Below, one piece after another: positions 1,332 through 42,958 of a DNA stretch of 64,000 nucleotides; the first letter of the stretch is position 1; every line of letters starts with the position of its first letter. The notes beneath the pieces were generated by a model. The model did not search any database, had not been told where the DNA came from, and was given only the letters and a program-made list of their open reading frames with translations. Origin of the DNA: Noviherbaspirillum suwonense (lineage in GTDB: Bacteria > Pseudomonadota > Gammaproteobacteria > Burkholderiales > Burkholderiaceae_D); the NCBI RefSeq assembly GCF_900182955.1, contig NZ_FXUL01000003.1, positions 186,001-250,000 of the forward strand, in the 5' to 3' direction. Position numbers and translations under genes: made by a program.

Positions 1332-2522
<1,191 letters not shown>

Positions 2523-23225: not shown

Positions 23226-24422
<1,197 letters not shown>

Positions 24423-24424
<2 letters not shown>

Positions 24425-25157
24425 ATGCCTGCGCTGCGTCATCCGCGGCTTGCGGCGCATCCGGCAAATCCGGCGCGGCCTGTTCCGGCGCCGGCAGGTT
24501 CAGTCCCAGCAAGGTTTCGATACGGTCGGTCGCCTCGTCCAGGCCGGTGCGCTTGAGCGCGGAAAACAGCTGCACGGTGAACGGGCAGGGACTGCCGTCC
24601 TCCATCACGTAGCTGGCCAGGATGGTCTGCGCCTGCCGCAGCGCGTTGGTCGCGTCGTTGCGGTTGAGCTTGTCGGACTTGGTCAGGATGCAATGGATGG
24701 GCTTGCCGGTCGGCGCAAACCATTCGAGCATCTGGATGTCCAGTTCCGTGAACGGGCGGCGCGAATCGACGATCAGCACCAGCGCGGCCAGCTGCGCGCG
24801 CCGCTGCACATAGTCGCCCAGCAGCGCCTGCCAGTGGAGCTTCGCGTTGCCCGAGACTTCGGCGTAGCCATAACCGGGAAGGTCGACCAGCAGGCCGCGG
24901 ATTTCATCGACCCGGGTCTCGTCCTTGCGATGCTGGCCGACATGCGCGCCGCCGATGGAAAAATAATTGATATGCTGCGTGCGGCCCGGCGTCTTCGATG
25001 CGAAGGCCAGTTTTTTCTGGTTGCACAATACGTTGATGGCCGTCGATTTGCCGGCGTTGGAGCGGCCGGCGAACGCGATCTCGGGGACTTGCGTCCCGGG
25101 CAGATCGCGCAGGTGATTGACGGTGGTGAAGAAGCGTGCCTGCCAGAGTTGGGACAT
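24423..25157 (-). CDS. engB: Ribosome biogenesis GTPase EngB (YihA/YsxC)
   Basis: EngB is an essential GTPase for 50S assembly. The start is set at [16 protein letters not shown] (244 residues), which matches the family; upstream in-frame codons are not conserved-looking. G1 is GRSNAGKS (residues 31-38), G3 VDLPGYGYA and G4 TKSDKL. A C-terminal Ala/Pro/Asp-rich tail of about 25 residues follows the domain. Its stop codon overlaps the T-run of the opposing terminator. Confidence 0.96.
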
Positions 25158-39220: not shown

Positions 39221-40068
39221 GACGGCGACGCCACTGCGGCCGGCGCCACGCCGGGTGGCGTCTTGTAGCGGTTATAGCTCCAGAAGTACTGCGCCGGGCA
39301 CAGCGCGATCAGCTTTTCCATCGCCGCGTTGATGCTGCGCGCCTGCTGCTCCGGCGTGCCCGACAGGTTTTCCTCGAAGCGCACGAAGCGCAGCTCGTAG
39401 CCGCGCCCGTGCTTCAGCCTTTCCGCATAGGCCAGCAGGATGGGCGCGCCGCTCATCTGGTGCAGCTTGGCCGGCAGCGTCATCGTGTAGGCCGGCTTGC
39501 CGTAGAAGTCGGCCCACGCGCCTTCGCCCTGCTGCGGCACCTGGTCCGGCAGCAGCCCGATCGCCTGGCCGCCTTTCAGCGTCTTCAGCAGCATGCGCAC
39601 GCCCGACAGGTTGGCCGGCGCCAGCCGCATGGCCGGCCGCGCCCGGGCCACTTCCAGCAGCGGCTTCAGCGCCTCCTTGCGCGGCGGCCGGTACAGCACG
39701 GTCAGCGGGATGTGCTCGGCCACCGCCTGCGCCAGGATCTCGAAGCAGCCCAGGTGCGGCGTCAGGAAGATCAGGCCGCGGCCCTCGGCCAGCGCGGCCC
39801 GCGGCAGGTCCAGGCTCTCGATATGGGCAACCGGCAGCACCCGCCGCGCCGGGCCGCACCAGACGAAAGGCAGTTCCATCAAACTCTTGCCGGCTTCGGC
39901 GATGGCGCTGCTGCGCAGGCCGCTGTAGCCGGCGCGCTGCAGGTGCGCGTTCAGGCGGCGGCGGTAGGAAGGGGAGGCGGCATAGACCAGCCAGCCGAGC
40001 GCGGCGCCGGTCAGGTGCAGCACTGGCAGCGGCAGGCGCGACAGCAGGCGGAATAGGTTGACAAGCAT
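39217..40068 (-). CDS. Lipid A biosynthesis acyltransferase (LpxL/HtrB family), first of pair
   Basis: This 283-residue member has the motif HLGCFE in place of HX4D, as in many LpxL/LpxM proteins, and the conserved RPPRKEALKPLLE and LPDQVPQQGEG blocks. The start MLVNLFRLLSRLPLPVL is chosen by similarity; a TTG 12 codons upstream (40104) is an alternative, and neither has a good ribosome binding site. With its coupled downstream copy it presumably adds the two secondary acyl chains of lipid A; which does which cannot be told from sequence. Confidence 0.9.
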   Translation of the reverse strand: MLVNLFRLLSRLPLPVLHLTGAALGWLVYAASPSYRRRLNAHLQRAGYSGLRSSAIAEAGKSLMELPFVWCGPARRVLPVAHIESLDLPRAALAEGRGLIFLTPHLGCFEILAQAVAEHIPLTVLYRPPRKEALKPLLEVARARPAMRLAPANLSGVRMLLKTLKGGQAIGLLPDQVPQQGEGAWADFYGKPAYTMTLPAKLHQMSGAPILLAYAERLKHGRGYELRFVRFEENLSGTPEQQARSINAAMEKLIALCPAQYFWSYNRYKTPPGVAPAAVASPS

Positions 40069-40087
40069 TAAGGAAGACGTCAGCGTT

Positions 40088-40116
40088 TTGCGCGTTTTTT
40101 TCAAGACGCGTAAAAT
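40088..40116 (+). promoter_or_regulatory. Promoter of metK
   Basis: TTGCGC (40088-40093) and TAAAAT (40111-40116) are exactly 17 bases apart. The start site would be near 40123, giving a leader of about 115 bases that includes the whole pseudoknot at 40159-40238. The -35 is a weak match. Confidence 0.45.
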
Positions 40117-40158
40117 AGCACGAAGTTTTATCCGCCGAGTTAACAGACAACTTGCGAG

Positions 40159-40238
40159 GCGGCCTACAAATCTCGCTAAAGCGTCGCAGGCTCATAGATA
40201 GGCCGCGACTTTTCGACTATCACTTTCATGGAGCCTGC
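40159..40238 (+). promoter_or_regulatory. Predicted pseudoknot leader sequestering the metK ribosome binding site
   Basis: GCGGCCTA (40159-40166) pairs perfectly with TAGGCCGC (40199-40206), closing a 32-base loop. Inside the loop GCAGGCTC (40186-40193) is perfectly complementary to GAGCCTGC (40231-40238), which holds most of the Shine-Dalgarno GGAG (40230-40233) and ends next to the ATG. A small hairpin CGC-TAAA-GCG (40174-40183) sits in the first loop. The two 8-bp helices form an H-type pseudoknot that would block translation. I do not recognise it as SAM-I, SAM-II or another known class; SAM feedback is the obvious hypothesis. Confidence 0.5.
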
Positions 40239-41399
40239 ATGGCACACGAATACCTCTTTACCTCCGAATCCGTCTCCGAAGGCCATCCCGACAAGGTAGC
40301 CGACCAGATTTCCGACGCGATCCTAGACGCCATCTTCGAGCAGGACCCGAAGGCGCGCGTCGCCGCCGAGACCCTGTGCAACACCGGCCTGGTGGTGCTG
40401 GCCGGCGAAATCACCGCGCATGCCAACGTCGACTACATCGGCGTCGCCCGCGATACGCTGAAGCGCATCGGCTACGACAATGCCGACTTCGGCATCGACT
40501 ACAAGAGCTGCGCGGTCATGGTCTGCTACGACAAGCAGTCGCCCGACATCGCGCAGGGCGTCGACGAAGGCCGCGGCATCGACCTCGACCAAGGCGCCGG
40601 CGACCAGGGCCTGATGTTCGGCTACGCCTGCAATGAAACGCCGGAACTGATGCCCGCCGCGATCCATTACGCGCACCGCATCGTCGAGCGCCAGTCGCAG
40701 CTGCGCAAGGATGGCCGCCTGCCATGGCTGCGCCCGGACGCCAAGTCGCAGGTCACGCTGCGCTACGTCGACGGCCGCCCGGTCGGCATCGACACCATCG
40801 TGCTGTCGACCCAGCATGCGCCCGAGATGGAGCACAAGCAGATCGAGGAAGCCGCGATCGAGATGATCATCAAGCCGGTGGTGCCGCAGGAATGGCTCAA
40901 CGGCACCCGCTTCCTGATCAACCCGACCGGCCGCTTCGTCATCGGCGGCCCGCAGGGCGACTGCGGCCTGACCGGCCGCAAGATCATCGTCGACACCTAC
41001 GGCGGCGCTGCGCCCCACGGCGGCGGCGCGTTCTCCGGCAAGGACCCGTCCAAGGTCGACCGCTCGGCCGCCTATGCGGGCCGCTACGTCGCCAAGAACA
41101 TCGTCGCCGCCGGCCTCGCCGAGCGCTGCCAGATCCAGATCTCGTATGCGATCGGCGTCGCCAAGCCGACCTCGGTCATGGTCACCACCTTCGGCACCGG
41201 CAAGATCAGCGATGAAAAGATCGCCGAACTGGTCAGGGAACATTTCGACCTGCGTCCGAAAGGCATCGTGCAGATGCTGGACCTGCTGCGCCCGATCTAC
41301 AGCAAGACCGCCGCCTACGGCCATTTCGGCCGCGAGGAGCCGGAGTTCAGCTGGGAACGGACCGACAAGGCCGAAGCGCTGCGCGCCAGCGTCGGCTGA
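40239..41399 (+). CDS. metK: S-adenosylmethionine synthetase
   Basis: MetK makes SAM from methionine and ATP. The start [20 protein letters not shown] gives 386 residues, the family length; an earlier in-frame ATG at 40152 falls inside the leader structure and is rejected. The ATP motif [12 protein letters not shown] and the phosphate loop [19 protein letters not shown] (core GGGAFSGKD) are intact. The SD GGAG is five bases from the ATG and lies within the predicted pseudoknot. Confidence 0.98.
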
Positions 41400-42848: not shown

Positions 42849-42920
42849 TTCGTCAAGGAGCGTTGCGACAGGGTGGTCATCCTGCCAGGCTTGGCGTATC
42901 AACACCGCAACCGCGCTCAC
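42849..42920 (+). promoter_or_regulatory. S-adenosylhomocysteine (SAH) riboswitch
   Basis: SAH riboswitches switch on SAH-recycling genes when SAH accumulates. P1 is CGTCAAG (42851-42857) with CTTGGCG (42890-42896). The conserved core GGAGCGTTGCG follows P1, P2 is CAGG (42869-42872) with CCTG (42881-42884), and the downstream AACCGCGCTCAC supplies the pseudoknot, CGCTC (42914-42918) with GAGCG (42858-42862). The conserved GAGCG-TTGC, AGGCTTG and GCGCTCA segments match the class. The AGGAGG ribosome binding site of ahcY lies about 30 bases further on, so control of translation or stability is likely. Confidence 0.9.
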
Positions 42921-42958
42921 GTGACTTTTTTCTTGGTTTTTTACAGAAAGGAGGCGTG

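Follow-up and report, generated by a model that had tools for sequence, protein, structure and literature searches.

The leader of metK in Noviherbaspirillum suwonense very likely contains a SAM-II-type translational switch. We estimate at about 0.87 the probability that it is a translational OFF riboswitch of the SAM-II/SAM-V kind, with SAM binding and switching predicted from sequence comparison. At plentiful SAM, metK would probably be shut off by its own leader RNA. The element looks like a variant of the known small SAM sensor, with a GAGUUAA third strand and an anti-Shine-Dalgarno (anti-SD) platform. It lies in a window of 64,000 nucleotides (contig NZ_FXUL01000003.1, positions 186,001 to 250,000), whose numbering is used throughout; all features of the element are on the + strand. 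The gene concerned is the open reading frame 40239..41399 (start ATG 40239), which we take from its sequence to be metK, encoding SAM synthetase. A search with its product gave 97 matches, and a MetK homologue is present in 95 of the 97 genomes of the window's family.

Upstream of the element, the hexamer TAAAAT at 40111..40116, about 21 nt before stem P1, is a candidate −10 box. In 69 of 88 family leaders a TANAAT precedes P1 by 5-45 nt, and 48 of these have it at 20-22 nt. As a promoter scan of 40000-40260 returned no sigma-70 type consensus promoter, the candidate is put forward on its conservation alone. A transcript starting just before the aptamer would be consistent with the TANAAT position. 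No terminator was found in the same interval, 40000-40260.

Leyn et al. (2014, PMC4239095) place betaproteobacterial metK outside all known methionine regulators, their own regulator search having failed. In the sections of that paper used here, SAM_alpha is given only for Rhizobiales and Rhodobacterales, and a terminator-linked metXZ element is newly found in betaproteobacteria. SAM-II has been described in alphaproteobacteria, with Bordetella bronchiseptica in the published alignment (PMC1273637), and in betaproteobacteria with terminators (PMC2258182). For Burkholderia cenocepacia and Herbaspirillum seropedicae, the cited portions of papers on their RNAs name the SAH riboswitch and do not refer to any element at metK (PMC4603805, PMC7011215). 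We found no description of a SAM-II-type metK leader in these bacteria in the accessible text of the open-licence PubMed Central literature. The element is a concrete and testable regulator candidate for one family and parts of its order that would fill a published gap, at an essential gene where the SAM-II model of Rfam misses a riboswitch candidate.

Pseudoknot and proposed expression platform of the metK leader

Comparisons were made on nested sets of leaders. Ninety leaders were taken from the 97 family MetK matches; seven matches fell outside this set, and two of those genomes gave L102 and L103, both with the element. The first alignment holds 77 of the 90 leaders, leaving out the duplicates L017 and L077, the coreless L072, and L049, L069 and L082-L089, which have long inserts or are divergent. 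Removal of duplicate or N-containing pieces left 71 leaders, from which a covariance model, R1, was built; its structure contained P1 and P3 alone. Ninety-three loci were searched with R1, and 97 matches were aligned to it.

The sensor lies at 40132-40185 and forms an H-type pseudoknot of SAM-II/SAM-V topology, made of P1, the GAGUUAA third strand, GACAACUUGCGA and CGCUAAAGCGUC. P1 pairs CCGCC (40132..40136) with GGCGG (40158..40162) and covaries. Its loop begins with the L1 third strand, GAGUUAACA (40137..40145), followed by GAC (40146..40148), the 5′ strand of the distal pseudoknot helix, and by CUUGCGA (40151..40157). P2 consists of an inner helix, 40154-40157 with UCGC at 40173..40176, and a distal helix, 40146-40148 with GUC at 40183..40185. 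Between the two 3′ strands of P2 lies UAAA (40177..40180). The GUC segment also forms the base of P3, and this overlap of P2 and P3 makes it the putative switching segment. The consensus, drawn mainly from family leaders, reads CCGCC-GAGUUAA-nn-GAC-AACUU-GCGA-GGCGG-nnUAnAAAUnU-CGC-UAAA-GC-GUC-GC-AGGCUC, then a loop, GCGAC, GGAGCCUGC and the start codon.

Across the 97 R1-aligned matches, 94.5% of the cells of P1 and both pseudoknot helices are paired, compared to 20.6-40.8% in slid controls. Both members of a pair have changed in 98 cells, against 26.7 in shuffles, and 0/500 shuffles were as high. The pseudoknot pairs were absent from the model that made this alignment; P1 was part of R1, so that the P1 covariation count leans towards the model. 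The P1 closing pair is CG in 48 rows, GC in 24, UA in 16, UG in 2, AU in 1 and other in 3. The third inner pseudoknot pair, 40156:40174, is GC in 44, AU in 10, GU in 8, UA in 1 and other in 23; within the window's family, L067 has A-U at this pair and its relatives G-C. The fourth, 40157:40173, is AU in 31, GC in 19, GU in 2, other in 2 and a gap in 41. Two of the three distal pairs show two-sided changes, with 93.5% of cells paired (GC 64, CG 3, GU 3, AU 2, UA 1, other 10; AU 70, UG 5, UA 4, GU 3, other 7; CG 90). For SAM-II, Barrick and Breaker (PMC2258182) predicted that the last base of the P1 loop pairs with a base further downstream and that adjacent C-G and G-C pairs could lengthen this pairing, which appears to be the inner pseudoknot helix. 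An extension of P1 by 40131:40163 was discarded, being paired in only 30/71 leaders.

The anti-SD, GCAGGCUC (40186..40193), pairs with the SD-containing strand GAGCCUGC (40231..40238) at −13.8 kcal/mol. In the 77 aligned metK leaders 87.9% of the cells of this helix are paired; slid versions reach 23.9-48.7%. Changes on both sides occur in 10 cells, against 3.7 in shuffles (0/500 as high). Other measures are weaker: the three pairs with a two-sided change were reached by 134/500 shuffles, and there is no excess of pair types. An alignment-free permutation test on 112 distinct metK leaders gave −15.06 kcal/mol for each leader's own pairing compared to −11.42 for permuted pairing (0/2000 permutations). 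In 37 leaders that are divergent or outside the first set the values were −12.99 and −9.73 kcal/mol (0/2000). Relatedness inflates such tests; the divergent set of 37 covers many families. A run of at least six pairs, G-U allowed, was present in 76/91 family leaders and 22/28 others, counts for which no chance level was computed. L162 provides an example, with CCUGCUCC opposite GGAGCAGG. Pairing is weak in some divergent leaders (L088 −3.3, L187 −4.9, L125 −5.9, L087 −6.2 kcal/mol). That the helix is conserved and adjoins the aptamer, as expected for a translational riboswitch, is supported by these comparisons. The first-pass annotation had proposed a structured, possibly SAM-responsive leader RNA that masks the Shine-Dalgarno sequence. 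This proposal is supported, the RNA being probably SAM-responsive, and the anti-SD:SD helix shows the covariation that the annotation had called for.

A second hairpin, P3, could compete with this helix. It pairs GUCGC (40183..40187) with GCGAC (40205..40209) and may be extended by 40189-40191:40202-40204; a further pair, 40188:40204, was too weak to retain (28/69 paired). P3 uses both the GUC 40183-40185 needed by the pseudoknot and the GC of the anti-SD, and so cannot coexist with the distal pseudoknot helix or with the anti-SD helix. Extended P3 (−11.6 kcal/mol) and the anti-SD:SD helix (−13.8 kcal/mol) are close in energy. The nested minimum-energy fold of 40122-40241 (−31.1 kcal/mol), calculated ligand-free, already pairs the anti-SD with the SD; therefore P3 would have to win during transcription. 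From this overlap we infer the role of P3 as an anti-anti-SD hairpin. At high SAM, the ligand would lock the pseudoknot and make GUC 40183-40185 unavailable to P3; the anti-SD, free of P3, would then pair with the SD, and translation would stop. At low SAM, P3 would form first during transcription and bury the anti-SD, the SD would stay free, MetK would be made and SAM would rise.

The same aptamer may also work without P3, SAM stabilising the pseudoknot together with an adjoining anti-SD:SD helix that otherwise breathes. Such a switch has been proposed for SAM-V, in a model that needs no competing hairpin (PMC6061858). The anti-SD begins directly after the last pair of the pseudoknot, so the two helices can stack. 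P3 itself shows no covariation: over the 77 leaders 98.2% of its cells are paired with no two-sided change, and 500/500 shuffles were as high on each measure. However, this high pairing speaks against a switch without P3, although the aptamer, too, fixes the 5′ strand, and P3 overlaps both of its partners as a competing helix would. We consider a switch without P3 unlikely, but a serious possibility, and retain P3 in the proposed mechanism.

Predicted ligand site and relation to known SAM riboswitches

In the SAM-V crystal structure (PMC6061858), the adenine of SAM pairs with U47 and its aminoacyl end binds A50. In the U20:A48.U9 triple, the O4 atoms of U9 and U20 are turned towards the sulfonium; U19:A49.U10 is a neighbouring triple. 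U8 holds U47 without contacting SAM, and SAM-II binds SAM almost as SAM-V does (PMC6061858). We mapped this site onto the metK leader by sequence register, using the published account of the structure. In this register U47 corresponds to U40177, U9 to U40140, U20 to U40153, A48 to A40178, A50 to A40180, U19 to U40152, A49 to A40179, U10 to U40141 and G21 to G40154; C40176 is taken as the counterpart of C46, the base before U47. Six partial or misplaced rows (L049 twice, L183, L140:258, L089 and L167) were removed from the 97. In the 91 copies that remain, all ten counterparts of the SAM-V ligand site are invariant.

The position that braces U47 in SAM-V (U8) is the variable one. Its counterpart, 40139, is G in 58 rows, U in 32 and C in 1, and the window has G. 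G is accompanied by CAACUU in 58/58 rows, and U by CAGCUU (19), CAACUU (12) or CAAAUU (1). Because the bracing base is G and not U, the metK element is filed as a variant. The metK type, with GAGUUAA, CAACUU and a G brace, might go further and constitute an aptamer subclass of its own, related to SAM-II in the way that SAM-V is, with a particular affinity window or ligand preference; we find this doubtful. Were it so, properties such as a raised Kd or a response to the SAM:SAH ratio would suit a SAM producer rather than the methionine pathway, and the cell would own two differently tuned SAM-II-type sensors, transcriptional at metX and translational at metK.

The change from U to G in the brace of the adenine-binding U, found in 58/91 rows and always with CAACUU, could also mean that the aptamer senses a ligand other than SAM, or SAH too. 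This is improbable. U40140 and U40153 never vary in the 91 copies, and in SAM-V the corresponding bases face the sulfonium and favour SAM over SAH; moreover metK encodes the SAM-producing enzyme, and SAH has a riboswitch of its own in this cell, at ahcY.

The first-pass annotation recognised no class to which the arrangement belongs. That it fits no known class is not borne out by the covarying pseudoknot, which has SAM-II/SAM-V architecture and the bases of the ligand site, and a new, unrelated SAM class is rejected on account of the SAM-II core. A scan with the Rfam SAM models had been suggested at the same time. Against 4227 Rfam families at a lax threshold, the leader aligned to SAM_alpha (SAM-II, RF00521) at 12.2 bits (E 3.5), under the gathering threshold of 36; P1 and the two pseudoknot helices were read from this alignment. 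Other, uninspected places of the same genome score up to 18.7 bits with RF00521, so that 12.2 bits alone means nothing. The same register was found in 2/20 other sources (19.8 and 18.0 bits, E 1.1 and 3.5), and the tandem upstream copy at L108 reaches 36.9 bits. Further matches of these scans were set aside: adapt33_3 in the window and IRES_Bip in L090 and L066 are far below threshold, though one IRES_Bip E-value (0.45) beats the SAM_alpha matches, and miRNA matches in L120 lie inside an inverted repeat about 900 bases from the element.

The link to SAM-II is provided by classic copies within the family. RF00521 matches at E up to 0.1 occur in 38/94 family genomes, two of them over the cut-off and neither on the metK contig. 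The 12 family loci taken from these RF00521 matches, with scores of 31.7-40.6 bits, are all recognised by R1 as well, at 20.1-32.9 bits and E up to 0.013. Where readable they precede metX, metZ or metH; they carry GAUUUGA and mostly CAGCUUGC, and several have a terminator-like stretch, by eye. When R1 was run on 18 RF00521 loci from other classes of the phylum, 7 matched at E up to 10, the best at 0.09, which makes R1 a weak finder of SAM-II outside the class. As R1 does not reliably recover distant SAM-II, the relation is a chain, from SAM-II elsewhere through the classic copies of the window's family to the metK type.

The metK element shares with SAM-II the P1 stem, the H-type pseudoknot, the CUUGC and GCUAAAG core in the same register, the association with methionine and SAM genes and the predicted OFF logic. 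It differs by having GAGUUAA instead of GAUUUG as third strand and CAACUU instead of CAGCUU, by falling below the Rfam threshold, and by its anti-SD/P3 translational platform. SAM-II is described as mostly transcriptional (PMC6061858, PMC2258182), and SAM-II riboswitches hiding an SD are known (PMC9373788). With SAM-V the element has in common the H-type pseudoknot, the ligand-site bases and the predicted translational control by hiding of the SD (PMC6061858), and where SAM-V has its P3, some divergent relatives have an insert. However, the window has only 10 bases (40163-40172) and no stem-loop between the 3′ strands of P1 and P2, and the SD strand 40231-40238 is hidden by a separate anti-SD, not by the distal pseudoknot strand 40183-40185. 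SAM-V gave no match in the Rfam scans of the window, its leader and the other loci scanned.

The betaproteobacterial metXZ element is likewise described as a pseudoknot between conserved regions followed by a terminator, before metX or metZ, but the sections cited contain no report of it at metK (PMC4239095). Compared by its published description, it probably corresponds to the classic SAM-II copies of the window's family. The metK element places SAM-II and SAM-V, and probably metXZ as well, in a single series. Known SAM-responsive RNAs of metK leaders include the SAM/SAH riboswitch of Rhodobacterales and SAM-III, the SMK box (PMC2864571, PMC4239095). Neither matched the window's leader at E up to 10 in Rfam, and the fold of the SAM/SAH riboswitch is unlike that of the metK element. 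The SAM-III fold differs from it as well.

The two complementarities first noticed

The leader had drawn attention through two exact 8-base complementarities, both of which exist: helix 1 pairs 40159-40166 (GCGGCCTA) with 40199-40206 (TAGGCCGC), and helix 2, the anti-SD:SD helix, pairs 40186-40193 (GCAGGCTC) with 40231-40238 (GAGCCTGC). They had been called unlikely by chance. This holds for the 80-nt span, in which 0.67% of 3000 dinucleotide shuffles contain at least two such pairs, but it is a modest argument only, as the level rises to 1.4% for 40125-40238 and 7.0% for 40070-40238. Therefore comparison with relatives must decide.

The first-pass annotation had read the two interlocked helices as the sensing pseudoknot and named covariation as the proof. 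Helix 2 covaries across relatives, whereas helix 1 has little support, and the pseudoknot that does covary lies mostly further upstream. For the two helices to be themselves a SAM-sensing fold of a new class, helix 1 would have to be functional. Both are perfect and stable in the window (−13.1 and −13.8 kcal/mol), and in the 77 aligned leaders helix 1 is 75.4% paired compared to 31.9-57.6% for slid versions, a percentage reached by 4/500 shuffles. Its outer four bases give a weak signal that relatedness could produce (60/2000 permutations as good, n=73). However, the outer four pairs are unpaired in 28/74, 32/74, 53/74 and 23/68 of the aligned sequences. Two-sided changes are no better than those of shuffles (2 pairs versus 2.3; 20 cells versus 15.9, 33/500 as high), and for the whole helix 267/2000 permutations pair as well (n=73). 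The inner half of helix 1 is common to P1 and P3, and its formation would break the covarying P1. We reject helix 1 as a functional helix; it is most likely a coincidence, and a new class built on it is very improbable.

A conserved leader that is recognised by a trans-acting sRNA or a protein and binds no ligand itself is equally hard to credit: the 41 invariant columns among 71 leaders would suit a protein site too, but all ten bases of the SAM-V ligand site are among those that never vary, and related copies are also found in front of other methionine genes (names read by eye).

Distribution and neighbouring RNA elements

Both halves of the conserved block are present in 89 of the 90 metK leaders of the window's family, L072 (genome G013) being the sole leader without the element. 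R1 matches occur in 155 of 300 genomes of the order and in 69 of 274 genomes of the class; many of the latter are near threshold and not all were inspected. In the rest of the order the element is present in about 16 of the 40 metK leaders sampled, and these 16 represent 12 of 33 families. The 40 leaders, one to three per family, come from the strongest MetK matches listed and are not a random sample. A regular expression flagged 15 of them; the count of 16 follows from dropping L150 (false) and adding L154 and L167. It includes L164 and L170, which were identified by eye and are not matched by R1 at E up to 0.01, and L183, whose match covers the 5′ half only. Among 80 listed of at least 118 matching stretches, an exact match to the degenerate core was found in Massilia, Duganella, Janthinobacterium, Herminiimonas, Oxalobacter, Noviherbaspirillum and unclassified MAGs.

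Nineteen divergent leaders were folded in which a long insert separates P1 from the GCUAAAG strand, where SAM-V has its P3. L049, L164, L151 and L182 have inserts that fold clearly better than their shuffled versions, unlike most of the others. Among other genomes of the class, copies stand before genes whose translations read as metZ, metE, metF, bhmT, metY and metK. In the window's genus, a second metK-like stretch (G078:C6:146160-147305), 58% identical and with two internal stop codons, is perhaps a decayed copy.

The window's genome holds a second SAM-II-type copy, of the classic form, before metX, with two inserts and an apparent terminator (G000:C19:21817-21859, L340). The SAH riboswitch reported 2.6 kb away by the first-pass annotation was recovered downstream with RF01057 at 42849-42925 (58 bits, threshold 37), where it precedes a gene reading as ahcY. 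Taken together, these assignments suggest three switches in the cell: SAM-II at metX, the element described here at metK, and the SAH riboswitch at ahcY. The window also contains an anti-hemB RNA at 24333-24426 (RF02837, 62.8 bits, threshold 49.5).

At several other loci two SAM-II-like copies stand about 95-200 bases apart (L108, L111, L112, L123, L128, L129, L130, L132, L143). Mostly a classic GAUUUGA copy, in some cases with an apparent terminator, is followed by a metK-type copy; L143 has a different order. In L111, L123 and L128 the tandem is followed by a small ORF and a gene for a MATE-like transporter. At L115, two different SAM riboswitch classes apparently stand in tandem before a gene reading like an AAA ATPase: a SAM-I/IV match (44.9 bits, threshold 41.1) and, immediately downstream in the same orientation, a metK-type SAM-II-like element (1608-1731 and 1501-1577, minus strand). 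Finally, sub-threshold matches to RF02424 (Burkholderia sRNA Bp2_287) fall on the strand opposite to classic SAM-II-like copies (L123:1612-1748, L112:1308-1444, L111:1312-1447, L108:1356-1483), and the predicted sRNA is perhaps such a leader in reverse complement.
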